DNA of 64,000 nucleotides from Roseicyclus marinus. GTDB taxonomy: Bacteria; Pseudomonadota; Alphaproteobacteria; Rhodobacterales; Rhodobacteraceae. The notes below the pieces were generated by a model. It had not been told where the DNA came from. It saw only the letters and a program-made list of their open reading frames with translations, and did not search any database. The stretch is from positions 248,001 to 312,000 of the forward strand of contig NZ_JASJOF010000005.1 of NCBI RefSeq assembly GCF_030163795.1. Reading direction: 5' to 3'. Below, piece by piece: positions 35,497 through 53,516 of this stretch. The translations under genes were made by a program, and so were the position numbers. Within the stretch, counting starts at the first letter, position 1, and the number at the start of each line of letters is the position of its first letter.

Positions 35497-35805
35497 TCAG
35501 ACCTCGAGATCGGCGACGAATATTCCTGCGTGACCGCCCCGGCAGGCGGCGACCAGCATGCCGCCTGCGCGGATGTGTTCGGGGTGCTGTTCATAAGCCA
35601 GATGGGCGGCGCGGTCGCTGAAATGGACCGAGAAACCGTAGGTATAGCGCTCCGATTTTCCCTCGAAATCGCGGTTGGGGCCGTGGGTGAAGCCGGAGGC
35701 ACCCGGCAAAGCGTCACAGACGGCGGCAAGGATCGGCATGGCCGCCTTGATCGTGGCAAGGGCTTCGGGGCTGTCAGGCTCCATCAGGACGATGTGGTGC
35801 AGCAT
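35497..35805 (-). CDS. Dabb (stress-responsive alpha/beta barrel) family protein
   Basis: A 102-residue protein with the small ferredoxin-like Dabb fold: MLHHIVLMEPDS at the start, the conserved GFTHGPNRDFEGKSERYTYGFSVHFSDRAAHLAYEQHPEH core, and a beta strand at the end (HAGIFVADLEV). Dabb proteins are dimeric and some are cyclases or isomerases; others are uncharacterised. The gene follows the glycerate kinase by 3 bp at the 3' end of the catabolic operon, so an accessory role there is a reasonable inference. Confidence 0.88.
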   Translation of the reverse strand: MLHHIVLMEPDSPEALATIKAAMPILAAVCDALPGASGFTHGPNRDFEGKSERYTYGFSVHFSDRAAHLAYEQHPEHIRAGGMLVAACRGGHAGIFVADLEV

Positions 35806-35808
35806 GGT

Positions 35809-37041
35809 CTACCCTTCGATCAGGATGGCGCGGAAATCGTTCACATTGGTGAGCGTGGGGCCGGTGACGATCTGGCCGCCTATCTTGTAGAAGAAATTGT
35901 GAGCGTCGTTCTGGGCCAGCGCCCCGGCCGCGTCGATCCCTGCGGCGCGCGCACGGCCAAGCGTGTCGGGGCCGATCACCGCGCCCGCGACCTCGGCCGC
36001 GCCATCGACGCCATCGGTGTCGCAGGCGATGGCATGGATGCCCGCCGCGCCATCGAGGGCCAGGGCCAGCGCCAGCGCGTATTCGGCATTGGGCCCCCCT
36101 ACCCCGTCGCCGCGGCGGGTCACGGTCAACTCACCGCCTGACAGGATCAGGCGCGGACCCTTGGCGGCGCGGGCCAAGGCGGCATGGGCAGCTGCAACCT
36201 CGCGCGCCTCCCCTTCGATCGCGTCGCCGAGGATGTCGATGGCATAGCCCGCCGCGCGGGCCAGATCGGCGGCGGCGGCCAGCGATTGGGCGGGGGCGGC
36301 GTAGATCACGTTTTCCACCCGCGACAGACGCGGATCATCGGGCAGGACAGGGTCGCCGCCCGCGCGCAGGAAGCCGTCGATGGAGGGGGGCGGCGTGACG
36401 CCCCAACGGGCGAGCGTGGCCAGCGCGCTGGCCGCATCGCCGCGATGCCCGACCGTGGGGCCGGAGGCGATATCGCCCGGATCATCGCCCGGCACGTCCG
36501 AGATCATCAGCGCAAGCATCCGCGCGGGATAGGCTGCGGCGGCAAGCCTGCCGCCCTTGACCGCCGATATCTCCTTGCGGATGCCGTTGATGTCGCCGAT
36601 GGGCGCGCCGGAGGCCAGCAAGGCTTGGGTCAGCGCCTGTTTCTCCTCCAGCGTGATGCCCGGCGCGGGCGCACAGAGCAGGGCGGAGCCGCCGCCCGAG
36701 ATAAGGGCGAGGACGAAATCCCCCTCCCCCAGACCTGACAACAGGTCGAGCATACGGCGGGTGGCGGCGACGCCTGCGGCATCGGGGACGGGGTGGGCGG
36801 CCTCCACGATCTCGATGCCCTTGCAGGGGCGGGCATAGCCGTAGCGGGTGATCACCAGCCCCTCGCAGGGGCCCCATGCGGCTTCGACCGCTTCGGCCAT
36901 GCGTGCGCTGGCCTTGCCCGCGCCGATGACAATGACGCGGCCCGGTGGCTTGGGCGGCAGGCTCTGGCCAAGGCTTTGCATCGGGTCGGCCACGGCGACG
37001 GCGCGGTCGAACAGCGCGCGGAGCAGATCGGGGGGCGTCAT
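35809..37041 (-). CDS. Glycerate 2-kinase (MOFRL family)
   Basis: A 410-residue kinase starting MTPPDLLRALFDRAVAVADP. It has the N-terminal DUF4147 domain (VIVIGAGKASARMAEA, LALISGGGSALLCAP, GIRKEISAVKGGRLA, ISDVPGDDPGDIASGPT) and the C-terminal MOFRL domain (LILSGGELTVTRRGDGVGGPNAEYALALALAL, CDTDGVDGAAEVAGAVI). This family makes 2-phosphoglycerate from D-glycerate with ATP. Its start overlaps the LacI-family gene by 4 bp, so it is coupled to the catabolic operon and implies that the pathway ends in glycerate feeding glycolysis. Confidence 0.93.
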   Translation of the reverse strand: MTPPDLLRALFDRAVAVADPMQSLGQSLPPKPPGRVIVIGAGKASARMAEAVEAAWGPCEGLVITRYGYARPCKGIEIVEAAHPVPDAAGVAATRRMLDLLSGLGEGDFVLALISGGGSALLCAPAPGITLEEKQALTQALLASGAPIGDINGIRKEISAVKGGRLAAAAYPARMLALMISDVPGDDPGDIASGPTVGHRGDAASALATLARWGVTPPPSIDGFLRAGGDPVLPDDPRLSRVENVIYAAPAQSLAAAADLARAAGYAIDILGDAIEGEAREVAAAHAALARAAKGPRLILSGGELTVTRRGDGVGGPNAEYALALALALDGAAGIHAIACDTDGVDGAAEVAGAVIGPDTLGRARAAGIDAAGALAQNDAHNFFYKIGGQIVTGPTLTNVNDFRAILIEG

Positions 37042-38051
37042 TCCGGGATTCCCGTGCTGGACATGCGGGGGACAAGCTGGACCGGGCTGCGCAATTCGGG
37101 GGCGGGGCGTTGCCCCTCCACCATCCAGGCGAGCAGGCGGGCGGCCGTGTCGCGGGCGAACCCGGCGATATCGCAGGCGACCGAAGAGAGCGGCGGCCAA
37201 GCCTGTTGCGCCTCCTCGATATCGTCGAAACCGACGACGCGGAATTCGGCGCCGATGGGGCGACCGGCACGGGCGAAGCCCGCCATCAGGCCCAGCGCCA
37301 CGAGGTCGTTGAAACAGATGGCGGCATCGACCTCGGGGTGGTCGGACAGCAATTCGCCCGCCGCCTGCATCCCGAAGGCGCGGCTGGATTTGCCGTGGAT
37401 CGCGACCTCGGCCAGACCCTCGGCCTTGAGTGTGTCGCGCCAGCCGGATTTGCGTTCCCGCGTGATGGCGCGGCCCGGCAAGCCGCCGACAAAGGCGATG
37501 TTGCGCGCGCCCTGCTCCATCAGGTGGCGGGCGGCCATGGTGCTGCCGCTGGCATAGTCGAAACTGGCGAAGGGAAAGAGATCGGTGCGTTCGTCCATTT
37601 TGCGCAGAACCTGCATCACCGGCAGGCCGGTCCGCGCCAACTGGTCGAAGGTTTCGCCCGGCCCCCCATAAGCGGGCGAGATGACCAGTGCGGACACGCC
37701 GTGTTCGATCATGGAGCCGACCAGCTTCGCCTGTAATTCCGCATCCTCGTCGGAATTGGCGATGACGGTGGCGTAACCTTCGGCGGCAAGCGCCATCTGC
37801 AGGCTGGTGGCGAATTCGGTGAAAAACGGGTTGCGCAGGTCGTTGATGACAAGGCCGACCAGCCCCACGGAGGCCGAGCGCAGGTTGGCCGCCGCGCGGT
37901 TGTAGACATAGCCGATCTCGGCCATGGCCTGTTCGACGGCGGCGCGGGTTTCGGGGCGCACCTGTTTGGACCCTTGCAGGACCAGCGAGACGGTGGATTT
38001 CGACACACCCGCGCGGGCGGCGACATCGAGGATGGTGGGGCGGCGGATCAT
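37038..38051 (-). CDS. LacI-family transcriptional regulator (in-operon)
   Basis: A 337-residue repressor. The N-terminal LacI helix-turn-helix (TILDVAARAGVSKSTVSLVLQG, about 5-26) and hinge (YNRAAANLRSASVGLVGLVI) are followed by a periplasmic-binding-protein-like sensor domain (FFTEFATSLQMALAAEG, AICFNDLVALGLMAG, VVGFDDIEEAQQAWPPLS). It is fifth in the operon GMC-SDR-GMC-DUF993-LacI-glycerate kinase. Because it is encoded in the operon whose first gene has a LacI-type palindrome upstream (43067-43080), and the same palindrome precedes the Gfo/Idh operon (53585-53598), I infer it controls both. Confidence 0.93.
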   Translation of the reverse strand: MIRRPTILDVAARAGVSKSTVSLVLQGSKQVRPETRAAVEQAMAEIGYVYNRAAANLRSASVGLVGLVINDLRNPFFTEFATSLQMALAAEGYATVIANSDEDAELQAKLVGSMIEHGVSALVISPAYGGPGETFDQLARTGLPVMQVLRKMDERTDLFPFASFDYASGSTMAARHLMEQGARNIAFVGGLPGRAITRERKSGWRDTLKAEGLAEVAIHGKSSRAFGMQAAGELLSDHPEVDAAICFNDLVALGLMAGFARAGRPIGAEFRVVGFDDIEEAQQAWPPLSSVACDIAGFARDTAARLLAWMVEGQRPAPELRSPVQLVPRMSSTGIPE

Positions 38052-38060
38052 CCCGGCAGG

Positions 38061-39224
38061 TTAGCCACTGATCCCGTGCAAGGCCAAGAGCGATCGCATC
38101 CGGGATTGCGCAAGATCGGGATCGACCAAGAGCCGCGCCTGATCGGCAAGGCGGTAGACCTGCGCGTAATGCGCGATCTCGCGCGAAGATTGGAAGCCGC
38201 CGGGCATGATGAAATGGGTTTGCGTGCCGTTGAGCCAGCTCAGAAAGGCGATGCCCGCCTTGTAGAACCGGGTCGGCGCTTTGAAAATCTCGCGGCTGAG
38301 CGGCACGGTGGGCGCGAAAAGCGCGTGATAGGTGGCGCTGTCGCCCATCGCCAGCGCCTCGAGCGCCTGCGAGGCGGCGGGCGCGATGGCGGCGAAGATG
38401 CCCAGAAGCGCGTGGGAATGATGGGTCCCGTCGCCTTCGATCAGGGGAGCATAGTTGAAATCGTCGCCGGTATAGAGGCGGACACCGGGCGGCAGCTTGG
38501 CGCGAAACGCTTCTTCGTGCGCCTGATCCAGAAGGCTGATCTTGATCCCGTCGATCTTGGCCGCGTGACGCGTGATGATGTCGAGGACAACGGCATTGGC
38601 GGTCTCGATATCCTGCGCGCCCCAATAGCCGGTCAGGGCGGGGTCGAACATGTCGCCCAGCCAGTGCAGGATAACGGGGCCCGCAGATTCTTCTATAAGT
38701 TTACCGTAGAGTGCGGCGTAATCCTCGGGCCCCGCCTTGATGGCGGGCAGCGCGCGGGTCGCCATCAGGATGATCTGCCCTCCTGCGGCCTCGATCGCCT
38801 CCATCTGGGTGCGATAGGCGGCGCGGATCGCGTCAAGCGTCGCAAGGCCGGATAGGTCGAGGTGATCGGTCCCCGCGCCGCAGGCGACCCGCGGGCACAT
38901 CGGATGGGCGCGCGCATCGGCCATGGTGCGCTGGATCAGCTCCAGCGCAGTGGGCCAATCGACGCCCATGCCGCGCTGCGCGGTATCCATCGCCTCGGCC
39001 AGCCCAAGCCCCTGATCCCAGAGCCGGTGGCGAAAGCCCAGTGTCGCCTCCCAATCGACGGCAGGGCGGCCCTCCCAAGGGCTGCGTTCGGCCAAGGGGT
39101 CGCTGATGACATGGGCCGCGGCAAAGGCGGTGCGGGTGAGGGTCACACGGGGGGCGCGCGGGATCAGCGGGTCGCCCGACAGGCGGTAATCCTCCAGCGT
39201 TCCGGCATAGGTCGGCAGCAGCAT
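38061..39224 (-). CDS. DUF993 family protein (dihydrodipicolinate-synthase-like)
   Basis: A 387-residue protein of the DUF993 family, related to class I aldolase TIM barrels such as DapA. Visible features are VACGAGTDHLDLSGLATLDAIRAAYRTQ, AGGQIILMATRALPA, ILHWLGDMFDPAL and DGIKISLLDQAHEEAF, where the lysine is a candidate Schiff-base residue. DUF993 genes occur in carbohydrate clusters, often with Gfo/Idh/MocA oxidoreductases, but I know of no established reaction. A retro-aldol step on an oxidised sugar is a plausible inference. It lies 9 bp upstream of the LacI gene and is followed by the glycerate kinase. Confidence 0.88.
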   Translation of the reverse strand: MLLPTYAGTLEDYRLSGDPLIPRAPRVTLTRTAFAAAHVISDPLAERSPWEGRPAVDWEATLGFRHRLWDQGLGLAEAMDTAQRGMGVDWPTALELIQRTMADARAHPMCPRVACGAGTDHLDLSGLATLDAIRAAYRTQMEAIEAAGGQIILMATRALPAIKAGPEDYAALYGKLIEESAGPVILHWLGDMFDPALTGYWGAQDIETANAVVLDIITRHAAKIDGIKISLLDQAHEEAFRAKLPPGVRLYTGDDFNYAPLIEGDGTHHSHALLGIFAAIAPAASQALEALAMGDSATYHALFAPTVPLSREIFKAPTRFYKAGIAFLSWLNGTQTHFIMPGGFQSSREIAHYAQVYRLADQARLLVDPDLAQSRMRSLLALHGISG

Positions 39225-39225
39225 C

Positions 39226-40818
39226 TCAGGCCCTCGCGTCTTGGCGGATCATGTCGGCGGCTTTCTCGCCGATCATGATGGCCGCGGCATTGGTGTTCGA
39301 TGAAATCACGGTCGGCATGATGGAATTGTCCACGACCCGCAGCCCGGCGATGCCGTTCAGCCGCAGACGCGGATCAACCACCGCGCCGGGGTCCACGCCC
39401 ATGCGGCAGGTGCCCGCGCAATGGTGCGAGGTCTTGGAATGCTCGCAGATGAAGTCGAAATACTCCTGCTCCGTCCGCACATCCGGCCCCGGCAGGCGCT
39501 CGGCCAGAACGTATTTGGCAAGCGGGGCTTGGGCCATGATCTCTTGCGTCAGCTTCAGGCCCCGGATCGACATCGCGCGGTCATGGGGATCTTGCAGGTA
39601 GTTCGGATCGATCAGCGGCGCCTTGGCCGGATCGCCGGAGGCAAGCCGCACGCTGCCGCGCGAGCGGGGGCGGAGGTGGCAGGAATTGAGCGTCACGCCG
39701 CCCTGCGGCATGATAGCGACACCCTTTTCGATGCCGGTGCCAAGGCCGAGGTGGAACTGGATATCGGGGGACCGCGCGTCGGGATCGGCATACCAGAACC
39801 CGCCGGTTTCAAAGAGCGAAGAGGCGACCGGCCCCTTGCGCGTCAGCAAGTATTGCAGGCCCGCCAGCGCCGCCATGTGCGGTTTGGCATAGCGGTCGTA
39901 GCTGTAGGGGCCACTCAATTCGACGATGCAGTAAAGGTCGAGGTGATCTTGCAGGTTCTCGCCCACCTGCGGCTGGTCGAGCACCACGTCGATCCCGAGA
40001 TCTTGCAGATGATCCGCGGGGCCGATGCCCGACAGCATCAGCAGACGCGGGGAACCGATGGCGCCGGATGACAGGATAACCTCAGCCGTGGCGGTGATCT
40101 GTGTGCCGTCCATCAGTTCGACCCCGGTGGCGCGCCCCGCGTTGGTCGTGATCTTGCGCACCTGCGCGCCGGTCCGCACGGTCAGGTTCGCCCGCCCCTC
40201 GTTCGGCGCGACATAGGCCATCGCGGCAGAAGATCGGCGGGCGTTGCGTTGGGTCAGTTGGTAGTAGCAGACGCCATCCTGTGCTTCGCCATTGATGTCC
40301 ATGTTGCGCGGAATGCCGAGGCTTGACGCCGCCTCGAAATACGCCTCGCAGATCGGCAGGGGGGCGATGGGTTGGGACACGCCCAAGGGGCCGCCCTTGC
40401 CGTGGTAGCGGTTGTCGTAGGTGTCGTTGTCCTCGGCCTTGCGGAACCAGGGCAGCACATCCTCATAGCCCCAGCCCTCGCAGCCCATCTGCCGCCATTC
40501 GTCGTAATCCTGCGCATTGCCTCGCGTGTAGATCTGGGCATTGAGGCTGGAGCCGCCGCCGATGACCTTGCCTTGGGTATAGTTGAAGACGCGGCCCTTC
40601 ATGTGGCGCTGCGGCACGGTTTCCCAGCCCCACGATCCAAGCCCCTTGGTCATTTTCGCAAAGCCCGCCGGCAGATGGTACAGCGGGTTTCGGTCGCGCC
40701 CGCCCGCTTCCAGCAGCAGCACCCGGGCCGTCGGATCCTCGGACAAGCGGGCGGCCAGAACACAGCCCGCACTACCGCCGCCGATGATGATGTAGTCATA
40801 CCCTTGGGCCATGGTCAT
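39226..40818 (-). CDS. GMC family oxidoreductase (choline dehydrogenase-like)
   Basis: A 530-residue FAD enzyme. The N-terminal dinucleotide fold (YDYIIIGGGSAGCVLAARLS, about 5-24), NAQIYTRGNAQDYDEW, ILSSGAIGSPRLLMLSGIG and the C-terminal active-site histidine region TSHHCAGTCRMG followed by RVVDNSIMPTVISSNTNAAAIMIGEKAAD are diagnostic. GMC enzymes oxidise alcohols or sugars. Of the two GMC genes in this operon it is the one nearest to the choline/alcohol dehydrogenase group. The next gene, DUF993, starts 2 bp after its stop, and its own start lies 3 bp after the SDR stop. Substrate unknown. Confidence 0.92.
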   Translation of the reverse strand: MTMAQGYDYIIIGGGSAGCVLAARLSEDPTARVLLLEAGGRDRNPLYHLPAGFAKMTKGLGSWGWETVPQRHMKGRVFNYTQGKVIGGGSSLNAQIYTRGNAQDYDEWRQMGCEGWGYEDVLPWFRKAEDNDTYDNRYHGKGGPLGVSQPIAPLPICEAYFEAASSLGIPRNMDINGEAQDGVCYYQLTQRNARRSSAAMAYVAPNEGRANLTVRTGAQVRKITTNAGRATGVELMDGTQITATAEVILSSGAIGSPRLLMLSGIGPADHLQDLGIDVVLDQPQVGENLQDHLDLYCIVELSGPYSYDRYAKPHMAALAGLQYLLTRKGPVASSLFETGGFWYADPDARSPDIQFHLGLGTGIEKGVAIMPQGGVTLNSCHLRPRSRGSVRLASGDPAKAPLIDPNYLQDPHDRAMSIRGLKLTQEIMAQAPLAKYVLAERLPGPDVRTEQEYFDFICEHSKTSHHCAGTCRMGVDPGAVVDPRLRLNGIAGLRVVDNSIMPTVISSNTNAAAIMIGEKAADMIRQDARA

Positions 40819-40821
40819 CCC

Positions 40822-41562
40822 TCAGAGCCGGTGAATGGACAGCCCGCCATCGACGGGAATGATTGCCCCCGTGGCAAAGGCGAAATCGCCGCGCACGAGC
40901 GGCAAGATGGTCTGCGCGATATCGGCGGGATTGCCCCAGCGGCGCGCGGGGACAAGGCCACCAGCGATGCGGTCGTCGTAGCGGTTGCGCACGGGCGCGG
41001 TCATCGGCGTTTCGATGATGCCGGGGCGGATGTCGAAGACGCCGATGTTCTCGGGGGCAAGGCGCGCGGCGAAGGCTTGCGCCATCATGGCCGCCCCGGC
41101 CTTGGACATGCAGTATTCCGCCCGGTCTGGTGACACCATCGTGGCAGAGACCGAGGTGATGAAGCAGATCGACCGGTAGGGATCGGCGGGCAGGTGCAGC
41201 ATCCGCCGCGCACATTCTTGTGCAAGAAAGAAGGTGCCGCGCAGGTTCACGTCGATGCAGCGGTCGAAACTGTCCGGCCGCATGTCGAGCAGGTCGCCCC
41301 TGACCATGGCCGGAACGCCCGCGTTGGAGATCAGCGTCGTCACCGGCCCGACGGCATCGAGCAGCGTGGCGATGGCCGCAAGGTCGCGCAGGTCGTGCTG
41401 GTGGTAGGTGGCTCCCGGCAGCGCCGCGAGCGCGGATTGCACCGCATCCGCCCCCGGCGGAAGCTCGGCGGCAATCGCCACCTCCCAACCCGCGGCCCGA
41501 AGCGCCGTTGCGATGCCCAGCCCGATGCCCTGCTGGCCGCCGGTGATCAATGCGCGTATCAT
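40822..41562 (-). CDS. SDR oxidoreductase (3-ketoacyl-ACP reductase type)
   Basis: A 246-residue short-chain dehydrogenase starting MIRALITGGQQGIGLGIATAL (TGxxxGxG at 8-14). NAG motif SNAGVP, catalytic serine in FITSVSATMVSP and Y-x3-K in YCMSKAGAAMM are present, with IIPVDGGLSIHRL at the end. It should oxidise or reduce a hydroxyl/keto group using NAD(P). The start overlaps the upstream GMC gene by 4 bp. The operon's run of three oxidoreductases in a row (GMC, SDR, GMC) suggests successive or alternative oxidation of one sugar-like substrate. Confidence 0.92.
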   Translation of the reverse strand: MIRALITGGQQGIGLGIATALRAAGWEVAIAAELPPGADAVQSALAALPGATYHQHDLRDLAAIATLLDAVGPVTTLISNAGVPAMVRGDLLDMRPDSFDRCIDVNLRGTFFLAQECARRMLHLPADPYRSICFITSVSATMVSPDRAEYCMSKAGAAMMAQAFAARLAPENIGVFDIRPGIIETPMTAPVRNRYDDRIAGGLVPARRWGNPADIAQTILPLVRGDFAFATGAIIPVDGGLSIHRL

Positions 41563-43037
41563 GCCGCGATCTCCTGTGCGATGCGGTCGGCCTGACGAAG
41601 CGCCAGCGCCGCGATGGTCAGCGACGGGTTCACCGCCGCCGAGGTCGGCAACAGCGAGGCGTCGCAGATCCACAGATTGGGGTGATCGTGGCAGCGACCA
41701 TAAGGGTCCGCCACGCTGGCGGCGGGATCGGCCCCCAACCGCGCCGTGCCACATTGATGCGACGGCGTGCGGCGGTCGAAGGCCTTGGACAGAAGCACGG
41801 GGAACCCCGCCTTGCGCAGCGCGGATTTGAGGCACGCAACCAGCGCCTCATGCGCTGCCCAGTTGGACCGCCGCCAATCCAGCACGATGTCATTGTCCTT
41901 GATCGTGACGCGGCTGTCGGGGTCGGGCAGATCCTCGGACATGACGTAGAAGTCGATGGCGCGGTCCGCGATCAGCTTGGCCAAGGCGCGCGGCAGACCG
42001 GTTTGCGCCGCAAGGATCGGGGCCGATACCCGGCCCAGAAGCTGGATATTGCCCAGCGGTTCGCCCTTCGGCCCGCCGGTCAGATACCAGTCGTTCAGCA
42101 TCAGCGTCTTTTGGTAGATCGACCGGTTCTTGCGTGGCGACAGCGCCAAGAGCGCCGAGGCATTGTGGTTCATGAAATTGCGCCCGACCTGATCCGAGCG
42201 GTTGGCAAGGCCCGCGGGATGATCTGCACTAGCGGAACGGAGGAGAAGCGTGGCGGTCATCACCGCCCCCGCCGCCAACACGATGCGCGGCGCGCTCAGG
42301 CGGCCGGCACTGGTCAAAAGGCCGGTGATGCGGTCCCCCTCGGCCTCGATCCGGTGGACGGTGACGCCGGCTTGAAGTCGAACATTGGGAAAGCTCAGCG
42401 CATGGGCAAGGGCGGCGGTTTCGGCGTCGAGCTTGCCGCCGGTGGTATCTGGGAAGGCATCCCACGGCGTCGTCGCGCGCGCCAACCAACGGGGCAGATC
42501 GACGGCCAACGGCAGGGGGGCGGGGTGAAGCCCCACGGCCCGCAACCGCCGTTCCAGATCGGCGATGGTCGGTTCATGGGGGACCGGGGGATAGGGGTAA
42601 CCGACCGCGCGGGGCGGATCGGTCGGGTCGATGCCGCCCTTCCCGCGGACCTGATAAAGCGCCTCGGCCCGATCATACCACGGCGCGAGCGTGCCATAGG
42701 GAAAGGGCCAGCCCGGGGTGGTGCCGTCGATGTGCCGGATCGGGGCGAAATCCGCCTCGCGGTAGCGGATCAACACCGCGCCGTAGAATTTGGAATTGCC
42801 GCCCACGCAGGCATAATTTCCGGGGTTGAAAGGCGTGCCATCCGGGGTGAGCCATGTCTCGGCCGGGCGGAAATGCCCGCGCCCGAAGATCGCCACCGGA
42901 TCGCGCGCCTCGGCACTATCGGCAATCCGTTCGCCGCGTTCCAGGATCAGGATGCGCAGGCCCGTCGGCGCCAGCCCCGCGGCCAGCGTCGCGCCCCCCA
43001 TTCCGGAGCCGATGATGATGAGATCGGCGTCGCTCAC
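41559..43037 (-). CDS. GMC family oxidoreductase (sugar 3-dehydrogenase-like)
   Basis: A 492-residue FAD enzyme that opens the operon. The N-terminal ADLIIIGSGMGGATLAAGLA gives the FAD site; VGGNSKFYGAVLIRYREADF and the C-terminal SHQCGTARLGADPAASV, then LWICDASLLPTSAAVNPSLTIAALAL, are the form seen in glucoside-3-dehydrogenase/gluconate-dehydrogenase-like GMC proteins rather than choline dehydrogenase. No small partner subunit gene or Tat signal is visible, so it may be cytosolic. Upstream, 30 bp before its start, lies the LacI-type palindrome listed separately, and a strong terminator of the ABC importer operon precedes that. Confidence 0.9.
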   Translation of the reverse strand: MSDADLIIIGSGMGGATLAAGLAPTGLRILILERGERIADSAEARDPVAIFGRGHFRPAETWLTPDGTPFNPGNYACVGGNSKFYGAVLIRYREADFAPIRHIDGTTPGWPFPYGTLAPWYDRAEALYQVRGKGGIDPTDPPRAVGYPYPPVPHEPTIADLERRLRAVGLHPAPLPLAVDLPRWLARATTPWDAFPDTTGGKLDAETAALAHALSFPNVRLQAGVTVHRIEAEGDRITGLLTSAGRLSAPRIVLAAGAVMTATLLLRSASADHPAGLANRSDQVGRNFMNHNASALLALSPRKNRSIYQKTLMLNDWYLTGGPKGEPLGNIQLLGRVSAPILAAQTGLPRALAKLIADRAIDFYVMSEDLPDPDSRVTIKDNDIVLDWRRSNWAAHEALVACLKSALRKAGFPVLLSKAFDRRTPSHQCGTARLGADPAASVADPYGRCHDHPNLWICDASLLPTSAAVNPSLTIAALALRQADRIAQEIAA

Positions 43038-43066
43038 CTGATCCTCCCTGCCCTTGATCTTAGCTA

Positions 43067-43080
43067 TTGGATCGTTCCAA
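43067..43080. promoter_or_regulatory. LacI-type operator upstream of the GMC operon
   Basis: TTGGATCGTTCCAA lies 30-43 bp before the GMC start codon. Its arms TTGGA/TCCAA are perfectly inverted. Read on the other strand it is TTGGAACGATCCAAT (including 43066), exactly the sequence found at 53585-53599 before the Gfo/Idh operon. Position near a promoter and palindromy fit a LacI-family repressor site, most likely for the LacI encoded in this operon. Confidence 0.75.
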
Positions 43081-43088
43081 TTCCAGTG

Positions 43089-43125
43089 AAAAAATACGCC
43101 CGCAGGCCGTGTCGACCTGCGGGCG
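43089..43125 (-). terminator. Intrinsic terminator of the sugar ABC operon
   Basis: On the minus strand CGCCCGCAGG (43125-43116) pairs perfectly with CCTGCGGGCG (43106-43097) around a nine-base loop, and is followed by TATTTTTT. This is a textbook rho-independent terminator just past the ATPase gene. It separates the importer operon from the GMC operon, whose operator follows directly. Confidence 0.9.
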
Positions 43126-43130
43126 CGCGA

Positions 43131-44246: not shown

Positions 44247-44251
44247 GGGTT

Positions 44252-46032: not shown

Positions 46033-46088
46033 CGGCCCCTCTCCCCCTTGCGGCGAATGCGATACGGACCCCTTCGGCCCGGTGGGTC

Positions 46089-46115
46089 GGACCGGCCCCG
46101 CGCGGGGACCGGTCC
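46089..46115. promoter_or_regulatory. GC-rich intergenic hairpin between binding-protein and permease genes
   Basis: GGACCGG (46089-46095) pairs with CCGGTCC (46109-46115), and the inner CCCC/GGGG also pair around GCGC. It sits 16 bp past the solute-binding-protein stop in its reading direction and is not followed by a T-run. Hairpins in this position in many ABC operons limit read-through or protect the upstream mRNA, keeping the binding protein in excess over the permeases. Confidence 0.6.
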
Positions 46116-46130
46116 TGAAGTCGCCCGTGA

Positions 46131-47381: not shown

Positions 47382-47426
47382 GTTTCGGTTCCTCCCTTAT
47401 TGACCACGCCCTTGCGGGCTTGTCCG

Positions 47427-47444
47427 AATTAAAACGTTATAATT
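47427..47444. promoter_or_regulatory. AACGTT-centred operator before the importer operon
   Basis: AATTAAAACGTTATAATT is an 18-bp inverted repeat with one mismatched pair. On the minus strand a TTGACG lies at 47458-47453, so the palindrome would cover the -10 area of the importer promoter. The AACGTT centre is typical of LacI-family operators; the divergent LacI gene is the obvious candidate regulator. Confidence 0.7.
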
Positions 47445-47558
47445 CCTCTATCCGTCAACTGAAAATTTTGCGGGGTGTTCACAGAAAAGCCCGCCGATCC
47501 CCCTGCATATGCAGCAATTTTCTGCGATGCAGCGTTTTCAGGTGCAAGAGATTTCATG

Positions 47559-47572
47559 TTGAAACGTTTGAA
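47559..47572. promoter_or_regulatory. Second AACGTT-centred operator, before the divergent lacI gene
   Basis: TTGAAACGTTTGAA is a 14-bp inverted repeat with one mismatched pair and the same AAACGTT core as the site at 47427-47444. It ends directly before an ATG at 47573 and lies 49 bp upstream of the ATG I prefer (47621). It suggests autoregulation and supports the downstream start. Confidence 0.6.
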
Positions 47573-47620
47573 ATGCCTGTCAATATGACAGCGACCCAAC
47601 CGCAGGCCCGACACCGCCCC

Positions 47621-48649
47621 ATGACCGACGACAGCACCCTTTCCGCCCTTCACGGCCATGGCGAAAAGCCCACGCTGCGCACCTTGGCGCAGGCCACCGG
47701 CTTTTCGGTCGCGACGGTGTCGAGGGCCTTGGCCAATGATCCGCGAATCGCCGCCAAGACGCGGGCCACCGTGGCCGAGATGGCCAAGCGGTTGGGCTAT
47801 ATCCCCGACCGGGCCGCGCGCCGCCTGCGCACGGGCCGCACCCAGGTCATCAGCCTGCTGCTGAACACCGAGCATGAATTCCTCGGCTTCACCCATGAAT
47901 TCCTGACCGGCATCACCGAAACGCTCGCGGGCACCGGCTATTCCGTCACGGTCGTGCCCGACAGCCCGGGCGAGGATCGCATCGGGCCGGTGCGTACGAT
48001 CCTGCGCAACAACCTCGCCGATGGGCTCCTGTTCACCCGGACCGAGGCCTTCGACCCCCGTGTGCGGCTGCTGATGGAGGCGGATTTCCCCTTTGTCAGC
48101 CACGGGCGCACCGAATTCACCGCCCCGCATCCTTGGGTCGATTACGACAACGAAACCTTTGCGAGGCAGGCCGTGGCGTATCTGGTGGCCAAGGGACGCT
48201 CGCGCATCTGCATGGTACTGCCGGGCGACCAGTTCACCTTTACCCAGCATCTGCGCTACGGCTTCGTTTCCGCCGCGCGGGAGGCGGGCATCGCCCATGA
48301 CATCGTGCCGGGCGTCACCCTCGACAGCCCGACCGCCGCGATTGCCGCAGCCTTGGCCGAGGCGCGGCGCGGCCCCAACCCACCCGATGGCTATGTCTGC
48401 GTCGGCGAAGTGACGGCGCTGGTCGCCCTTGCGGCGCTTGCCGATACCGGGGCGGTGCATGGTGTCGATGCCGATATCGTGGCCAAGCGCGCCTCGCCGA
48501 TCTTCGACAACATTCGCCCCCGCATCGGCACCGTGTTCGAGGATCTGCGTGCCACGGGCCGCGCCATGGCGGAAATGCTGCTCCGCCGCATGGCGGGCGA
48601 ACCGCCCGAGCGGCTCAACCGGCTGTTCCAGCCCGATCCGCCGCGCTAG
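47621..48649 (+). CDS. LacI-family regulator of the divergent sugar importer
   Basis: A repressor of 342 residues from the chosen start MTDDSTLSALHGHGEKP; ATGs at 47573 and 47585 are in frame but the first directly abuts an operator. The HTH TLRTLAQATGFSVATVSRALAND is at about 18-40 with hinge PDRAARRLRTGRTQVISLLL; the sensor domain follows (FTHEFLTGITETLAGTGYSV, DGLLFTRTEAFD, GYVCVGEVTALVALAAL). The gene is divergent from the importer operon. The arrangement resembles the AglR-aglEFGAK and similar sugar-uptake loci of rhizobia. It is convergent with the aldehyde dehydrogenase gene (2-bp gap). Confidence 0.9.
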   Translation: MTDDSTLSALHGHGEKPTLRTLAQATGFSVATVSRALANDPRIAAKTRATVAEMAKRLGYIPDRAARRLRTGRTQVISLLLNTEHEFLGFTHEFLTGITETLAGTGYSVTVVPDSPGEDRIGPVRTILRNNLADGLLFTRTEAFDPRVRLLMEADFPFVSHGRTEFTAPHPWVDYDNETFARQAVAYLVAKGRSRICMVLPGDQFTFTQHLRYGFVSAAREAGIAHDIVPGVTLDSPTAAIAAALAEARRGPNPPDGYVCVGEVTALVALAALADTGAVHGVDADIVAKRASPIFDNIRPRIGTVFEDLRATGRAMAEMLLRRMAGEPPERLNRLFQPDPPR

Positions 48650-48651
48650 GC

Positions 48652-50175
48652 TCATTCGACCCAGGCCCCGCGCGTCTGGCCGATGCGCATCTGCACGGTC
48701 TTGACCTCGAGAAATTCCTCCAGACCGTAGCGGCCCAGTTCCCGCCCCTGCCCGCTTTCCTTGAACCCGCCAAAGGGCAGTTCGGAAAAGCCGTCCATCC
48801 AGGTGTTGGTCCAGATCGTTCCGGCCCGCACGCGCCGCACGAAATCGAGACAGGTGGAGATATCGCGGCTCCACACGCCCGCCGACAGTCCATAGGCGGC
48901 ATCATTGGCAAGCGCGATGGCCTCGTCCGCGGTGCGGAAGGTCAGGACCGACAGCACCGGGCCGAAGACCTCTTCGCGGGCGATGGCCATCTCCGGGCGG
49001 ACATCGGTGACGATGGTGGGCTGGTAGAATTGCGCGCCCAAACCGCCGACCTCGAGCGCCCCACCACCCAGCGCGACATGCGCCCCGGCGGCCACGGCGC
49101 CCCGGACGTAACCGTCGATCTTGGCCAAATGTTCGGGCGAGATGATCGCGCCGACCTGCGTGCGCGGATCCAGCGGATCGCCAAAAGGCACCTTGCGGCT
49201 GAGCGCCACGATCTTCTCGACCAGCGCAGCGGCGACATCCTCATGCGCGATGATCCGGCTGCCCGAATTGCAACATTCGCCCGCGTTGAAATAGATGCCA
49301 AAGGCGATGGCATCGGCGGCCTGATCCAGATCGGCATCGGCAAAGATGACCTGCGGGTTCTTGCCGCCCAGTTCCAGTGACACTTTCTTGAGCGTTGCGG
49401 AGGCTGCGGCTGTGATCCGTTTGCCAACCCCGGTCGATCCGGTGAAGGACACCATGTCGACGCGCGCATCGGTGGTCAGCACCTCGCCCACCGGATCGCC
49501 ATATCCCAAAACGATGTTACAGACACCCTCGGGCAGGCCCGCTTCTTGTAGAATTTCACCCAGCATCACGGTCGTTCCCGGCGTCAGTTCCGAGGGTTTG
49601 ACCACCGCCACACACCCCGCCGCGAGCGCAAAGGGCAGCTTTTGCGAGATGATGAGAAACGGGAAATTCCACGGCGTGATCAGCGACACGACCCCGATCG
49701 GCTCCTTCAGCACCAGTCCCAGCATGTCGGGGCCAAGGCTGTTGTGGCTGTCGCCGGCTTGGGTGCGCGCCAGCGCCGCCGCATAGCGCCAAAGGTCGGC
49801 TGCGCCTTCGATCTCGGCCATGGCTTGGCTGATCGGCTTGCCGGATTCCAGCACCTCCTGCTGGGCGATGGCGGCCCGGTCGCGGTCGATCAGATCGGCG
49901 ACCTTCAAAAGCAGCGTGGCGCGATCCTTGCCCGAGGATCTGGGCCAAGCCCCCGTATCAAAAGCCTTTCGCGCCGCCGCAACGGCGGCTTCGGCCTCGG
50001 CCCGCCCACCTTTGGCCGCGACGGACACCGGCACGCCATGGGCGGGCGACCGGCGTTCGCTGGTCGCGCCATCGGCGCTGTCGACCCATGCGCCGCCGAT
50101 CCAATGGCGCAGCCCCATGGGCGCATCGGGCAGGGCGGCGGCGTTGGTGGCGGGAATGATCGTCAGGTCAAGCAT
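48652..50175 (-). CDS. NAD(P)-dependent aldehyde dehydrogenase
   Basis: A 507-residue enzyme. NAD site VSLITPWNFPFLI and FTGSTGVGKRI, the catalytic glutamate in SLELGGKNPQVIF and the nucleophile cysteine in FNAGECCNSGSRI are intact, as is the C-terminal PFGGFKESGQGRELG. It oxidises an aldehyde to an acid; its closest look is betaine/4-hydroxymuconic-like ALDHs, but no substrate can be fixed. It is the last gene of Gfo/Idh-CoA transferase-enoyl-CoA hydratase-ALDH, 3 bp after the hydratase stop. Confidence 0.93.
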   Translation of the reverse strand: MLDLTIIPATNAAALPDAPMGLRHWIGGAWVDSADGATSERRSPAHGVPVSVAAKGGRAEAEAAVAAARKAFDTGAWPRSSGKDRATLLLKVADLIDRDRAAIAQQEVLESGKPISQAMAEIEGAADLWRYAAALARTQAGDSHNSLGPDMLGLVLKEPIGVVSLITPWNFPFLIISQKLPFALAAGCVAVVKPSELTPGTTVMLGEILQEAGLPEGVCNIVLGYGDPVGEVLTTDARVDMVSFTGSTGVGKRITAAASATLKKVSLELGGKNPQVIFADADLDQAADAIAFGIYFNAGECCNSGSRIIAHEDVAAALVEKIVALSRKVPFGDPLDPRTQVGAIISPEHLAKIDGYVRGAVAAGAHVALGGGALEVGGLGAQFYQPTIVTDVRPEMAIAREEVFGPVLSVLTFRTADEAIALANDAAYGLSAGVWSRDISTCLDFVRRVRAGTIWTNTWMDGFSELPFGGFKESGQGRELGRYGLEEFLEVKTVQMRIGQTRGAWVE

Positions 50176-50178
50176 CGG

Positions 50179-50946
50179 TCAGGTTCCGGGAAATTCGGGT
50201 TTGCGTTTGGCGGCAAAGGCCGCGACGCCCTCGGCCTTGTCGGCGCTTGCGGCGATCATGCCGCCGCCCAAGGCTTCGATCATGGCGGCGCTATCTTCGC
50301 CCACGGCGGCGTGGATCTGGTATTTCGCCACTTCGACCGCGCGGGGCGACGAAGTGGCAAGGCTGGCGGCGATGCTTTGGGCGGCGGCCAGCGGATCGTC
50401 GGACACCTCCGCCACGAAACCCAATCCCTGCGCGCGCGCGGCATCGAGACGGCGACCGAAAAGCGCCATTTCCTTTAGCACCGGCTCAGGGATCAGGCGG
50501 GCCAACCGCTGTGTCCCCGACCATCCCGGCACGATGCCCACCTGCGCCTCGGGCAGCGCCAGCGTGGCGGTGGGCGCCATCACGCGGATGTCGCAGCACG
50601 CGGCCAGTTCCAGCCCGCCGCCAAAGGCCGGGGCATGGATCACCGCGATGGTGGGTTTCGACAGCCGCGCCAAGCGATCGAAAATGCGATGCCCCTCGCG
50701 CACCCAAGCCCGCGCGAAATCGAAGGGCGACAGGCCCGCCCAAGCCTTGATATCGGCCCCGGCGCAAAAGGCGCGGTCTCCCTCGGACCGCAGGATGACG
50801 GCGCGGATCTCCGGGTTACGCTCCAACGTTGCGCAATGCGCCTCCAACTCCGCCAACATTTCCGGCGTGAAGGCGTTGAGCTTGGCGGGATTGTCGAGAA
50901 CGACATGCGCCACCGCATCCACGATCTGCAGATGAATCGCGCTCAT
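50179..50946 (-). CDS. Enoyl-CoA hydratase/isomerase family protein
   Basis: A 255-residue crotonase. Oxyanion-hole segments AFCAGADIKAWAG (about 58-70) and PAFGGGLELAACCDI are present, and both catalytic glutamates of the hydratase type are kept (E in LELAACCD and in LPEAQVGIVPGWSGTQRL). It acts on a CoA thioester, probably hydrating or isomerising an enoyl-CoA. The start overlaps the CoA-transferase stop by 4 bp, so the acid activated by that transferase is the likely substrate source. Confidence 0.93.
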   Translation of the reverse strand: MSAIHLQIVDAVAHVVLDNPAKLNAFTPEMLAELEAHCATLERNPEIRAVILRSEGDRAFCAGADIKAWAGLSPFDFARAWVREGHRIFDRLARLSKPTIAVIHAPAFGGGLELAACCDIRVMAPTATLALPEAQVGIVPGWSGTQRLARLIPEPVLKEMALFGRRLDAARAQGLGFVAEVSDDPLAAAQSIAASLATSSPRAVEVAKYQIHAAVGEDSAAMIEALGGGMIAASADKAEGVAAFAAKRKPEFPGT

Positions 50947-52514
50947 GGTGCCCAGCCCATCGGCTGATCGCGCAACAGCGCCACAGGCATCGTCTTGGCG
51001 TTGTCGGCCAGCTGCACGCGCCCGCCGCTGGCCGCCACGATATCGCGCGCCGGGTCGATCCCCGGCATGATCTCGACCGCTTGCAATCCCTGCGCGGTCA
51101 GGCGGATCACGCACCGCTCGGTCACGTAGATCACGTCCTGCCCCTGCGCCACCGCCCGGCGGCCCGAGAAGGTGACGTGTTCGACCGCATCCACCATCTT
51201 GGCGAATTTGCCGGGCTTGACGACGGACAGGCCCGTGTCGGTCAGCGACAGCTCGGCACCGGCCTCGAAAAACCCGGAAAAGACGATCTTTTTCGCATGG
51301 GCCGTGATGTCGACGAACCCGCCGCAGCCCGCCGTCAGATAGGGTTTCTTGCCCAGTTTCGAGACATTGACGTTGCCCTGAACATCGACCTCCAGAAACG
51401 ACAGGAAGGTCTGATCGAACCCGCCGCCTTGAAAATAGCTGAACTGGTTCGGGCTGGGGACGAAAGCATCGGCATTGGACGCGCAACCAAAGGCGAAACC
51501 GGTCAGCGGCATCCCCCCGACGGCGCCCTGTTCGATGGCCCATGTCACGGCCTGCGCATGCCCTTCTTCCAGCAAAACGCGCGGCACCATCGCGGAAATG
51601 CCGAAGCCGAGGTTTGCGGTCTGCCCGCGCTTCAGCTCCATCGCGGCGCGGCGCGCGATGACCTTTTCCACGCCATGTTCGGCAAGGCTGAAACTGTCCC
51701 AAGGGCGCATGATTTCGCCCGAGATGGCGGGATCGTATTGGGTTTCGGTGGTCTGCTTCTGGTCGGGGGCCAGAACGATCAGATCGACCAGATGGCCCGG
51801 CACATGCACGTCATGGGGCCGCAGGCTGCCTGCCGCGGTCATCCGCTTGACCTGTGCGATGACCAAGCCCCCATGGTTGCGGGTGGCGATCGCCTGATCC
51901 AGCCCGCCCAGATACGCCCCCTCGTGCTCATATGTCAGGTTGCCGCGTTCATCGGCCGTGGTGGCACGGATGATGGCGACATTGGGCACGATGTTGGGGA
52001 AATGCAGCCATGTCTCGCCGCCGAATTCCGCCCGATGCACGATGGGCGATGCCGCCCCCCGCGCGTTCATCGCGCAGCCCTCGCGGATCGGATCGACAAA
52101 TGTGTCGAGACCCACCTTGGTCATCACACCCGGGCGGCGGGCTGCCACGTCGCGGTGCATGTCGAACAAGATACCCGAGGGGACGTTATAGGCCGCGATC
52201 CGATCCTCCACGACCATCTTCCAGATCTCGGGCATCGGCAGGTTCGAGGGGCCAGAGGGATAGCTGCCTGCGATCACGCGGGCCAAAAGCCCGTCCTGCG
52301 CGATATGGTCGATCCCCTTGACCCCGTACATGTCGCCAGCCGCGATCGGGTGCAGCGTGGTCAGGCGCCTCGGATGCCCCTCGGCCCGGAACCTTTCGCC
52401 CAGCGCCTTGAGGACCGCATCGGGGCACCCCAAGGCCGAGGAGGAGGAGACGGTGACAACCGCATCATCGGGAATGCGCGCGACCGCCTCGGCCGCGGTG
52501 ACAAGCTTGCCCAT
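50943..52514 (-). CDS. Family I CoA transferase (fused alpha-beta, YdiF/propionate type)
   Basis: A 523-residue single-chain CoA transferase. The N-terminal half (VSSSSALGCPDAVLKALGERF, THVGLDTFVDP-like TKVGLDTFVDPIREG) and the C-terminal half with the catalytic glutamate region VTWAIEQGAVGGMPLTG, then CGGFVDITAHAKKIVFSGFF, match fused family I enzymes that swap CoA between acyl-CoA donors and a free acid. It is second in an operon and lies 3 bp after the Gfo/Idh gene. It is intact, unlike the unrelated CoA-transferase remnant at 20.6 kb. Confidence 0.92.
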   Translation of the reverse strand: MGKLVTAAEAVARIPDDAVVTVSSSSALGCPDAVLKALGERFRAEGHPRRLTTLHPIAAGDMYGVKGIDHIAQDGLLARVIAGSYPSGPSNLPMPEIWKMVVEDRIAAYNVPSGILFDMHRDVAARRPGVMTKVGLDTFVDPIREGCAMNARGAASPIVHRAEFGGETWLHFPNIVPNVAIIRATTADERGNLTYEHEGAYLGGLDQAIATRNHGGLVIAQVKRMTAAGSLRPHDVHVPGHLVDLIVLAPDQKQTTETQYDPAISGEIMRPWDSFSLAEHGVEKVIARRAAMELKRGQTANLGFGISAMVPRVLLEEGHAQAVTWAIEQGAVGGMPLTGFAFGCASNADAFVPSPNQFSYFQGGGFDQTFLSFLEVDVQGNVNVSKLGKKPYLTAGCGGFVDITAHAKKIVFSGFFEAGAELSLTDTGLSVVKPGKFAKMVDAVEHVTFSGRRAVAQGQDVIYVTERCVIRLTAQGLQAVEIMPGIDPARDIVAASGGRVQLADNAKTMPVALLRDQPMGWAP

Positions 52515-52517
52515 GGT

Positions 52518-53516
52518 TCAGACCCCGCCGTAATCGACCGTGGTGCGCCGACCCGTCTTGGCCGCCTGCGCCACGGCGGCGGCGACGGCCAGCGATTTGA
52601 TCCCGTCGATCCCGTCGGCGGCAGGCCGCCCCTGTCCCTGAATGGCCGCGTGAAACAGGTTGAGCGCGCGCAGGTAGAGGTTGTGATCCGAATAGGGCAG
52701 CGCCTCTTCGCCCGCATCGGTGCGCAGCAGGATCTCGCCCACCGGGGCCTGCGTCATCACGTTGCGCGCGACGATCGCGCCCTTGGTGCCGTAAATCTCC
52801 AGCCCCGTCCGCGCATGGGCATGGGTAAAGCTTTCATGCGTCATGACCATGGCCCCCGACGGCATGGTCCAGACCGACATGCAACTGTCCTCGACCCCTT
52901 TGCCAAGGCCGGATTCCGCGTCGATGGCGACCACGTCCACCGGATCCTCGCCCAGATGGAAACGCACGGTATCGGCGTCATGCACCACGATATCGGGGAT
53001 CACGCCACCGCCCGCCGCCGGGTTGTCGAGCCGCCAGCCCTGCAGGACCTGCGGCAGGTAAACGGCGTGAAAGACCCGTACGCTCAACACCTCGCCGATG
53101 CGCCCCGCCTGCACCGCCTCGCGGATCGCCAGATGGGTGCCCGCGTTGCGCAGATGATGGTTGGTGCCGAACACCAACCCCGCATCCTCGGCCGCGCGGA
53201 CCATGGTCACGGCATCGGCGACATCCATGGCCAAGGGCTTTTCGCACAGCACATGCTTGCCCGCCGCAATCGCCGCCATGGCCTGCGGAAAATGCTTTTC
53301 GTTCGTGGTGGAGATATAGACCGCGTCCAGATCGTCGGCGGCCAGCATCGCGTCCAGATCGGCATAGCCATGCGCGATCCCATGCTCGGCGGCATAGGCC
53401 TTGGCGCGGTCCGCGTCCGAACTGAGGACCGAGCGGATATCGCCACCCGCCCCGCGAATGGCCCCGATCATGTGGCCCGCCGCGATATTGCTCGCGCCGA
53501 TCAATCCCCACCGCAT
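52518..53516 (-). CDS. Gfo/Idh/MocA family oxidoreductase
   Basis: A 332-residue NAD(P)-dependent dehydrogenase. The Rossmann motif is WGLIGASNIAAGHMI (GxGxxx-type with S), and the diagnostic EKP sits in KHVLCEKPLAMDVADAV. The C-terminal half carries GGGVIPDIVVHDADTVRFHLGE with the histidine-aspartate pair used in sugar catalysis. The family oxidises sugars, inositols and related polyols. It opens the operon with CoA transferase, enoyl-CoA hydratase and ALDH. The operator-like TTGGAACGATCCAA lies 69 bp upstream of its start. Confidence 0.93.
   Translation of the reverse strand: MRWGLIGASNIAAGHMIGAIRGAGGDIRSVLSSDADRAKAYAAEHGIAHGYADLDAMLAADDLDAVYISTTNEKHFPQAMAAIAAGKHVLCEKPLAMDVADAVTMVRAAEDAGLVFGTNHHLRNAGTHLAIREAVQAGRIGEVLSVRVFHAVYLPQVLQGWRLDNPAAGGGVIPDIVVHDADTVRFHLGEDPVDVVAIDAESGLGKGVEDSCMSVWTMPSGAMVMTHESFTHAHARTGLEIYGTKGAIVARNVMTQAPVGEILLRTDAGEEALPYSDHNLYLRALNLFHAAIQGQGRPAADGIDGIKSLAVAAAVAQAAKTGRRTTVDYGGV

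Follow-up and report, generated by a model that had tools for sequence, protein, structure and literature searches.

A LacI-controlled gene island of Roseicyclus marinus as a candidate system for 1,5-anhydrohexose catabolism

Introduction

Members of the Rhizobiaceae reduce 1,5-anhydro-D-fructose (AF) to 1,5-anhydromannitol (AM), and the enzyme that would subsequently hydroxylate the product is not identified in the section of a review that treats this step (PMC12441222, section 5.1). A strain of Sinorhizobium morelense was isolated on AF, according to the available part of the same review (PMC12441222). The present analysis concerns a gene island at positions 35497–53516 of a 64,000-nucleotide stretch of the Roseicyclus marinus genome (contig NZ_JASJOF010000005.1, positions 248,001 to 312,000), referred to below as the window. 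The island comprises sixteen open-frame genes, fifteen of them on the minus strand; the remaining one, which encodes the regulator LacI B, lies on the plus strand. Coordinates are those of the window, and genes are on the minus strand unless otherwise stated. The island may be one LacI-controlled catabolic system for 1,5-anhydrohexoses, namely AF, AM and perhaps 1,5-anhydroglucitol (AG). To this reading, which is based on sequence comparison, we assign a probability of roughly 0.47.

A preliminary description of the same DNA had proposed a carbohydrate or polyol pathway ending in glycerate, with uptake, oxidation to a keto-sugar, retro-aldol cleavage by a DUF993 protein and a second fragment handled through CoA esters. 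All the genes that it named are in place with open frames. A small gene of the Dabb type (stress-responsive A/B barrel; 35497–35805; PF07876, 2.8e-09) had been overlooked, and its stop codon coincides with the coordinate at which that description began. The island itself is real, co-regulated and conserved, and its treatment as one catabolic system is borne out. The proposed scheme is supported in part, and the substrate class, for which anhydrosugars had stood only in a list of suggested assays, can now be narrowed through one of the dehydrogenases.

The reductase relative and the substrate class

The first gene of the island in the direction of transcription (52518–53516) encodes a Gfo/Idh/MocA oxidoreductase (Gfo protein). 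It is 57.8% identical to 4koa and 55.0% identical to 2glx, with full-length matches of 392.8 and 374.1 bits, respectively. These AF reductases (AFRs) are the sole two distinct solved sequences that match it at E≤1e-30 over the full length. For comparison, a levoglucosan-dehydrogenase-like (LGDH) Gfo protein from a sister cluster is 28–29% identical to either AFR. The lysine of the EKP motif and a histidine of DxxxH type are the catalytic residues of AFR, and the stretches CEKPLAM and VHDADT are conserved in the alignment of the Gfo protein with the AFRs. Relatedness to AFR is thus established for the Gfo protein, and an NADPH-dependent reduction of AF to AM is its role as predicted by homology.

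The S. meliloti counterpart, which bears the annotation 1,5-anhydro-D-fructose reductase, shares 99.7% identity with 4koa. Its gene stands in a run that encodes DUF993, LacI, AFR, CoA transferase, enoyl-CoA hydratase (ECH), aldehyde dehydrogenase (ALDH), a periplasmic sugar-binding protein (SBP), permeases, an ATPase, a GMC oxidoreductase, a short-chain dehydrogenase (SDR), a second GMC oxidoreductase and a glycerate kinase, with no other annotated genes between them. When the 2glx sequence was compared with nine genomes of the order of genome G164, the best identity was 67%. The presence of this AFR relative in the kind of cluster that also encodes the S. meliloti AFR narrows the substrate class to 1,5-anhydrohexoses. 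The island would thus degrade sugars of this class, with AF itself as a candidate substrate.

A much reduced version of the gene set is found on the Bradyrhizobium plasmid pNK6a (L130, 13992–18494), where only an AFR relative, a relative of the first GMC oxidoreductase (GMC1; 60.8% identity) and an MFS permease occur together, amid transposases. Since the rest of the cluster is missing there, GMC1 and AFR may share one ring as substrate. AFR matches at an equal identity (52.6%) are present on ten more Bradyrhizobium plasmids.

Shared control of the enzyme operons

Gene spacing, operator-like palindromes and a strong terminator-like hairpin suggest that the island is split into three units. Unit 1 encodes the Gfo protein, CoA transferase, ECH and ALDH. 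Unit 2 (47381–43131) encodes the SBP, two permeases and the ATPase, with the LacI B gene on the opposite strand (47579–48649). Unit 3 (43037–35497) encodes GMC1, SDR, a second GMC oxidoreductase (GMC2), DUF993, the second LacI regulator (LacI A), a glycerate 2-kinase and the Dabb protein. The hairpin (43096–43126), 3′ of the ABC operon and on its strand, separates this operon from GMC1; it has a 14-pair stem with 11 G-C pairs and an ATTTTTT tail. As a class, terminator-like sites show no excess in the window, with 7 found versus 10.8 in shuffled sequences.

The intergenic regions before units 1 and 3 carry a common LacI-type palindrome, TTGGAACGATCCAA or its complement. A pattern search places one site before the GMC1 operon (43067–43080) and the other before the Gfo operon (53585–53598), and both have counterparts in related loci. 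At up to one mismatch, TTGGAWCGWTCCAA has two sites in the window, against 0.01 expected. The exact TTGGAWCGWTCCAA likewise has two sites in the whole 3.62-Mb genome, one before each enzyme operon of the island. Co-regulation of these operons, which had earlier been merely asserted, is thus backed by two operators that are the sole exact sites in the genome.

A similar arrangement is observed in other genomes. The 80 fetched loci that encode a CoA transferase or a GMC relative hold 102 operator sites at up to one mismatch, a count inflated by many close relatives and many near-copies from Mesorhizobium. Of these sites, 97 are located in the 250 bp that precede a cluster gene and 5 elsewhere. 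The genes that they precede encode DUF993 (45 sites), the Gfo protein (20), CoA transferase (14), LacI A (11), GMC1 (2), a flavoprotein (2), LGDH (2) and SBP (1). These sites support the assignment of the two enzyme operons to one LacI regulon. The likely reader of the TTGGAWCGWTCCAA sites is LacI A (37038–38051; LacI and Peripla_BP_3 domains), a homologue of which is encoded in 53 of the 61 loci that were chosen for the CoA transferase.

LacI B (47579–48649, plus strand; LacI and Peripla_BP_3 domains; start codon uncertain) is divergent from the importer operon. Two more palindromes with a central CG, at 47428–47443 and 47558–47573, lie between the SBP gene and LacI B; they are unlike the main operator and are possibly sites for LacI B.

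Conservation of the gene set

Synteny was compared in the best 80 of at least 578 relatives from a DUF993 scan of public genomes, which are loci chosen for DUF993, and in 18 further stretches. Most of the island genes recur linked in Rhodobacterales and Rhizobiales, and partly in a Polaromonas, so that the set is shared by bacteria of soil and of marine origin. In Roseibium porphyridii, counterparts of all sixteen genes are found on a 49-kb plasmid (L127), where the SDR gene spans the start of the record. This plasmid also bears nitrate assimilation and hydroxyproline genes, and the source of the sample was the red alga Porphyridium. In S. meliloti Ak57, fourteen counterparts stand side by side, without the second LacI and without a Dabb gene that is annotated or detected by tblastn.

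Within the family of the window, 198 genomes were compared. The CoA transferase is found in 47 of them (E≤1e-150) and DUF993 in 42 (E≤1e-50), while both are found in 35 (Fisher p 9e-22, uncorrected for relatedness). In 25 of these 35 genomes the two genes are on one contig, 1.8–12.1 kb apart, and in the other 10 they are on separate contigs. Hence, co-occurrence in other genomes, whose absence had been named as grounds for giving up the proposed pathway, is seen, mostly with linkage. Class-wide, in 289 genomes that include the one studied here, DUF993 is found in 25, AFR-like proteins in 3 (E≤1e-60) and the CoA transferase (at least 59% identity) in 6, two of which (G154 and G148) lack DUF993. 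As a separate observation, at L140 (6408–17439), in a genome without DUF993, CoA transferase and ECH genes stand in a sugar-acid setting with a TRAP transporter, another Gfo protein, an SDR and a galactonate-dehydratase-like enolase.

Exchange of the lower modules

The SDR is present in 29 of 29 loci that encode DUF993 (at least 65% identity), GMC1 and GMC2. For the comparison of modules, 24 loci with CoA transferase, GMC1 and GMC2 were used, because most of the 61 CoA transferase loci stop at 10 kb, short of the SDR. In the 14 of these that have DUF993, the SDR is found in 14, the LGDH-like Gfo protein, the flavoprotein and a KdgK-like kinase in none, and the glycerate kinase in 9. In the 10 without DUF993, the SDR is found in one, the flavoprotein (697 residues) in 8, LGDH in 7, the KdgK-like kinase in 6 and the glycerate kinase in none. 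The lone SDR without DUF993 is at L154, which is cut off by the end of its contig; L150 and L153 are incomplete, and L152 was assigned to the second version by its kinase alone. Over all 61 CoA transferase loci, the SDR accompanies DUF993 in 20 of 48 and is found without it in 2 of 13 (p 0.11 by a Fisher test that ignores relatedness).

Operator sites precede the flavoprotein gene in L147 and the LGDH gene in L149 and L151, and the second module therefore seems to belong to the same regulon in these loci. In a CoA transferase tree obtained by a quick method, the version without DUF993 forms one clade of 11 rows nested in the first version (SH-aLRT 97); the clade takes in two undetermined rows and a doubtful one. 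The exchange would thus be a single event, and the association counts given above are not independent. A third version, in L029, L162 and L163, combines CoA transferase, ECH, an acyl-CoA dehydrogenase, SDR, DUF993 and a xylose-isomerase-like protein; relative to the acyl-CoA dehydrogenase of L029, those of L162 and L163 show 83% and 87% identity, respectively. A fumarylacetoacetate (FAA) hydrolase was considered as a common partner and discarded, as it is present only in L028, with a 34% relative in L160.

Judged by gene content, SDR and DUF993 are an exchangeable pair, which in one clade of the family of the window is swapped for a block of LGDH, flavoprotein and KdgK-like kinase. In effect, the clusters display a module exchange inside one regulon. 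By contrast, ECH is present in 61 of 61 loci chosen for the CoA transferase, and the idea that the CoA enzymes serve a separate side branch is weakened.

A proposed route through CoA chemistry

A fuller scheme can be offered tentatively, although we regard it as doubtful. It would be an aerobic, CoA-dependent route: the sugar would be reduced to its manno form, and dehydration after activation with CoA would break the ether ring and leave a 2-keto-3-deoxy acid. Interchangeable lower modules would complete the degradation, either SDR and DUF993, with or without glycerate kinase, or a dehydrogenase, a flavoprotein and a kinase similar to that of 2-keto-3-deoxygluconate (KDG). DUF993 would represent a new class of Schiff-base C-C lyases without a pyruvate site.

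In the preferred anhydrohexose reading, the sugar would be brought in by the ABC importer, as judged by homology. GMC1 (41559–43037; GMC_oxred_C), a short GMC enzyme similar to FAD-linked dehydrogenases of glucose and fructose (6a2u, 8e-34; 7w2j, 2.6e-24), may oxidize C2 of AG to give AF, and the AFR relative is predicted by homology to reduce AF to AM, so that the two enzymes together would invert C2. The C6 alcohol might then be converted to a 2,6-anhydro acid by GMC2 (39226–40818; 8b7s, 1.3e-111; also 9lq0 and 8rpg), which is similar to choline dehydrogenases and alcohol oxidases, and by ALDH (48652–50175; Aldedh, 543 bits), which is BADH-like and yet scores under the cut-off of the BADH family (471 of 669 bits). 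The acid would be activated by the CoA transferase (50943–52514), a single-chain enzyme of the YdiF/FadX type with a CoA_trans domain, a match to YdiF (2ahu, 3.4e-95) and orthologues in other genomes. ECH, a member of the crotonase family (50179–50946; ECH_1) whose gene overlaps that of the CoA transferase and whose translation shows the two glutamates of the crotonase motif, may dehydrate the CoA ester across C4–C5 to an enol ether. Hydrolysis of this ether would open the ring and yield a 2-keto-3-deoxy-hexonate of KDG type. Such a sequence of steps would be compatible with the constant genes and with either lower module.

From this point, the SDR (40822–41562; PRK12745 group, 311.8 bits versus a cut-off of 250) would oxidize a hydroxyl, and Lys228 of DUF993 may form a Schiff base with the resulting ketone, after which the chain would be cleaved. 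In the sister genomes, the block with the KDG-kinase-like gene would stand in for SDR and DUF993. Where it is present, the glycerate 2-kinase (35809–37041; DUF4147 and MOFRL domains; 171 bits versus the NF041176 cut-off of 550), an optional member of the cluster, would by homology convert D-glycerate to 2-phosphoglycerate. D-mannitol is identical from either end; therefore, AM would give a D-gluco acid, and D-glycerate from C1–C3, while AG would give the L form. If the kinase accepts D-glycerate specifically, this would account for the reduction of AF to the manno product ahead of cleavage. Thus, the manno configuration set by AFR would lead to D-glycerate if glycerate represents C1–C3, and the gluco form would lead to L-glycerate.

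The DUF993 protein

The DUF993 protein (38061–39224; PF06187, 577 bits; 4dnh, 1.4e-141) gave a structural model with a pLDDT of 89.8. The first Foldseek match of this model is 4dnh, a protein of S. meliloti that carries no annotation, followed by the dihydrodipicolinate synthase (DHDPS) family; the TM values to 2a6l are 0.66 (query) and 0.86 (target), and 4icn matches at 6.6e-09. A Foldseek search of a viral library added nothing. The aldolase fold that had been suggested for this protein is thus recovered by structure matching. Lys228, in the stretch DGIKIS on strand 6 (224–230 of the model), does not vary among the 32 relatives aligned. It is aligned with the Schiff-base lysine of DapA in five of six MAFFT runs, and it is off by one against a second row of the DHDPS family in two runs. 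An hhalign comparison with an alignment of the DHDPS family, which had only three rows, gave a probability of 3.2%.

In ordinary members of the fold, the GTTGE motif binds the pyruvate carboxylate. At the corresponding position of DapA's motif, DUF993 has DTAQR, in which D80, T81, Q83 and R84 are invariant; the two are in register in three of six MAFFT runs. The motif is itself variable, as two other rows of the DHDPS family read GIMGE and GSMGD there. In addition, the invariant His187 stands opposite the catalytic Tyr133 of DapA in six of six runs. As both the GTTGE region and the catalytic tyrosine differ, an ordinary KDG or pyruvate aldolase is disfavored, and a plain retro-aldol reaction of the DHDPS type loses support despite the retained lysine. 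By these features, DUF993 resembles a Schiff-base enzyme with the DHDPS fold that lacks the usual mode of pyruvate binding.

A second context of DUF993 is found in S. meliloti (L129). Its protein belongs to the same family and is about 52–59% identical to that of the window. Here the gene is accompanied by several Gfo genes, a mandelate racemase-like gene, a sugar phosphate isomerase-like gene and a TetR gene, with a sugar importer nearby. In contrast to the island, no CoA transferase or ECH is seen alongside, and the importers are of the TTT, NMT1 or other types. As in the island, a dehydrogenase adjoins DUF993. Because an SDR, or a Gfo protein in the second context, is next to DUF993, the dehydrogenase may make the ketone on which DUF993 would act. 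In the available part of a further study, SMc04132 and SMc04390-92 form one module with negative values in a phaR comparison (PMC12542648).

Weighing the proposal

Several observations weigh against the anhydrohexose reading or the route just outlined, in addition to the DTAQR stretch and His187 of DUF993 and the dependence among the association counts. First, the formation of an enol ether by ECH, which would lead to water at its alpha carbon, would be unusual chemistry. Second, the KdgK-like kinase of the sister clusters is closest to 2-dehydro-3-deoxygluconokinase at 261 bits, which is below the cut-off of 400. Third, of 31 loci in which DUF993 is at least 65% identical, only 15 have a linked glycerate kinase, and the other 16 lack it although 3.5 kb or more is available on the side concerned; two pairs of these loci (L055/L159 and L060/L161) each seem to be one genome counted twice. 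It is consequently uncertain whether the pathway ends in glycerate, as the original scheme had proposed. Fourth, AFR is found in only 43 of the 61 CoA transferase loci, in some of them truncated, and none is seen in G154, L144, L146, L148, L151 and L152. For this reason, AF may not be the sole substrate and, given that neither AFR nor the glycerate kinase is constant, the substrate or the product may differ among clusters. Finally, the published proposal for AM is hydroxylation at C1 to mannose, according to the available part of the review (PMC12441222), and no oxygenase is seen among the cluster genes.

The inconstancy of AFR and of the kinase would also suit a different natural substrate, such as another 2-keto-glycoside, a C-glycoside or an osone, which the AFR relative would reduce. 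Gfo/Idh/MocA enzymes are often promiscuous, and the family of glucose-binding proteins that includes the SBP is a general one. A further point concerns SMc04396, presumably the sugar-binding protein encoded in the S. meliloti cluster. SMc04396 is reported to be induced by dextrin (PMC4960864). Nevertheless, the closest structures are both of the solved AFRs, one of them encoded in this type of cluster, and the S. morelense strain was, in the review excerpt, isolated on AF itself (PMC12441222). On balance, a substrate of this other kind seems unlikely.

The published proposal leads to another alternative, which we judge distinctly improbable. In it, hydroxylation of AM at C1 would give mannose, which the other island genes would break down oxidatively in the style of the non-phosphorylated Entner-Doudoroff pathway, DUF993 serving as the KDG aldolase. 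The resemblance of GMC1 to FAD glucose dehydrogenase would fit, as would the use of a MOFRL glycerate 2-kinase by the non-phosphorylative route; for the hydroxylation, the available part of the review cites Kuhn et al. 2006 (PMC12441222). However, neither an oxygenase nor a sugar-acid dehydratase is seen in the clusters of S. meliloti, Roseibium and the window, the search for a dehydratase having been confined to these clusters. Moreover, CoA transferase and ECH would be left without a task, and DUF993 differs at the motif for the pyruvate carboxylate.

The unusual step assigned to ECH would be avoided if the CoA enzymes acted on 3-hydroxypropionate. Here AM would be oxidized at C3 by a GMC enzyme or the SDR, and a Schiff base of DUF993 at C3 would eliminate the ring ether at C5. 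The resulting 3,4-diketone would give D-glycerate and 3-hydroxypropanal, which ALDH, CoA transferase and ECH would carry to acryloyl-CoA and AcuI to propionyl-CoA. This would be ordinary chemistry for ALDH, CoA transferase, ECH and the kinase, the nearest solved structure to ECH is 5zai, a 3-hydroxypropionyl-CoA dehydratase, and a gene of the AcuI/YhdH type exists elsewhere in the genome (449.8 bits versus a cut-off of 297). Cleavage of the diketone, on the other hand, has no assigned enzyme. In addition, variants without DUF993 and SDR retain CoA transferase, ECH and ALDH, with the KdgK-like kinase in 6 of 10, and the AcuI-type protein (330 aa) has no relative in any fetched stretch at E≤1e-20. 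On the last two grounds this route was rejected as the principal explanation, and it appears improbable. The degradation of 1,5-anhydrohexoses under LacI control is kept as the preferred reading of the island.

Importer and neighboring genes

The importer had been described as of a glucose/mannose type, in agreement with the sequence of its binding protein. The SBP (46131–47381; SBP_bac_1) is a member of the glucose-binding family, with matches to 4r2b (543 bits), 5dvf (376 bits) and 2b3b (130 bits); the role of the ABC set as an importer is predicted from homology. The protein in 2b3b is a glucose-binding protein, and the ligand in 4r2b is probably glucose. A model of the SBP built from the single sequence was unusable (pLDDT 38.4). 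Two permeases (45133–46032 and 44252–45136; both BPD_transp_1) and an ATPase of the MalK/UgpC type (43131–44246; ABC_tran and OB_MalK) complete the set. In relatives of the island, Dabb genes also adjoin those for ECH, GMC2 or DUF993.

Directly upstream of the Gfo operon and on the same strand, a FAD_binding_3 monooxygenase-like gene and an SDR gene (53641–55961) lie outside the conserved set. Downstream, at 59932–63777, are a 4-hydroxybenzoate hydroxylase-like gene, two genes similar to subunits of protocatechuate 3,4-dioxygenase and a gene similar to that of the beta-keto acid cleavage enzyme, all named by eye from their translations. These pca/pob-like genes at 59.9–63.8 kb prompted the consideration of a feruloyl-CoA-type aromatic route for CoA transferase, ECH and ALDH, which was set aside, as the annotated clusters of S. 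meliloti and Roseibium lack such genes.

Comparison with known systems

In PubMed Central, to which the literature search was confined and subscription papers did not belong, no description of the cluster was found among the matches listed, and DUF993 is named in none of the papers searched. Likewise, no paper was found that links the genes for CoA transferase, ECH, DUF993 and glycerate kinase to AF catabolism. Under the proposed route, DUF993, a family with a solved yet unexplained structure (4dnh), gains a testable role.

The non-phosphorylative Entner-Doudoroff pathway uses an aldolase of the DHDPS fold, glyceraldehyde and ALDH, and a MOFRL glycerate 2-kinase, and similar components are found in the island. 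The island differs in having DTAQR in place of the GTTGE of DapA and no sugar-acid dehydratase in the cluster, and its CoA transferase and ECH would have no place in that pathway. The oxidative deoxyribonate pathway (Price et al. 2019, PMC6365646) shares with the island, in the parts of the paper available, the oxidation of a sugar acid by an SDR, CoA chemistry and a glycerate kinase that leads to 2-phosphoglycerate. By contrast, it cleaves by a beta-keto acid cleavage enzyme or a thiolase (PMC6365646), neither of which is among the island genes, and the island has DUF993, two GMC enzymes, AFR and ECH instead.

The anaerobic breakdown of AG and AM (Ma et al., as cited in the available part of PMC12441222) concerns the same class of substrates. 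That route is strictly anaerobic and relies on phosphorylation by a phosphotransferase system (PTS) and on a glycyl-radical lyase, whereas the island encodes ABC uptake and dehydrogenases of the flavin and NAD types. A further related system is AF catabolism in S. morelense (AFR; 2glx, 4koa): an AFR relative is encoded in the island, and the same run of genes includes the AFR gene of S. meliloti. Only the reductase step is assigned in S. morelense, as far as the available part of the review extends (PMC12441222). With the island, this half-known pathway, of which the review names just the first enzyme, gains a complete candidate set of genes.

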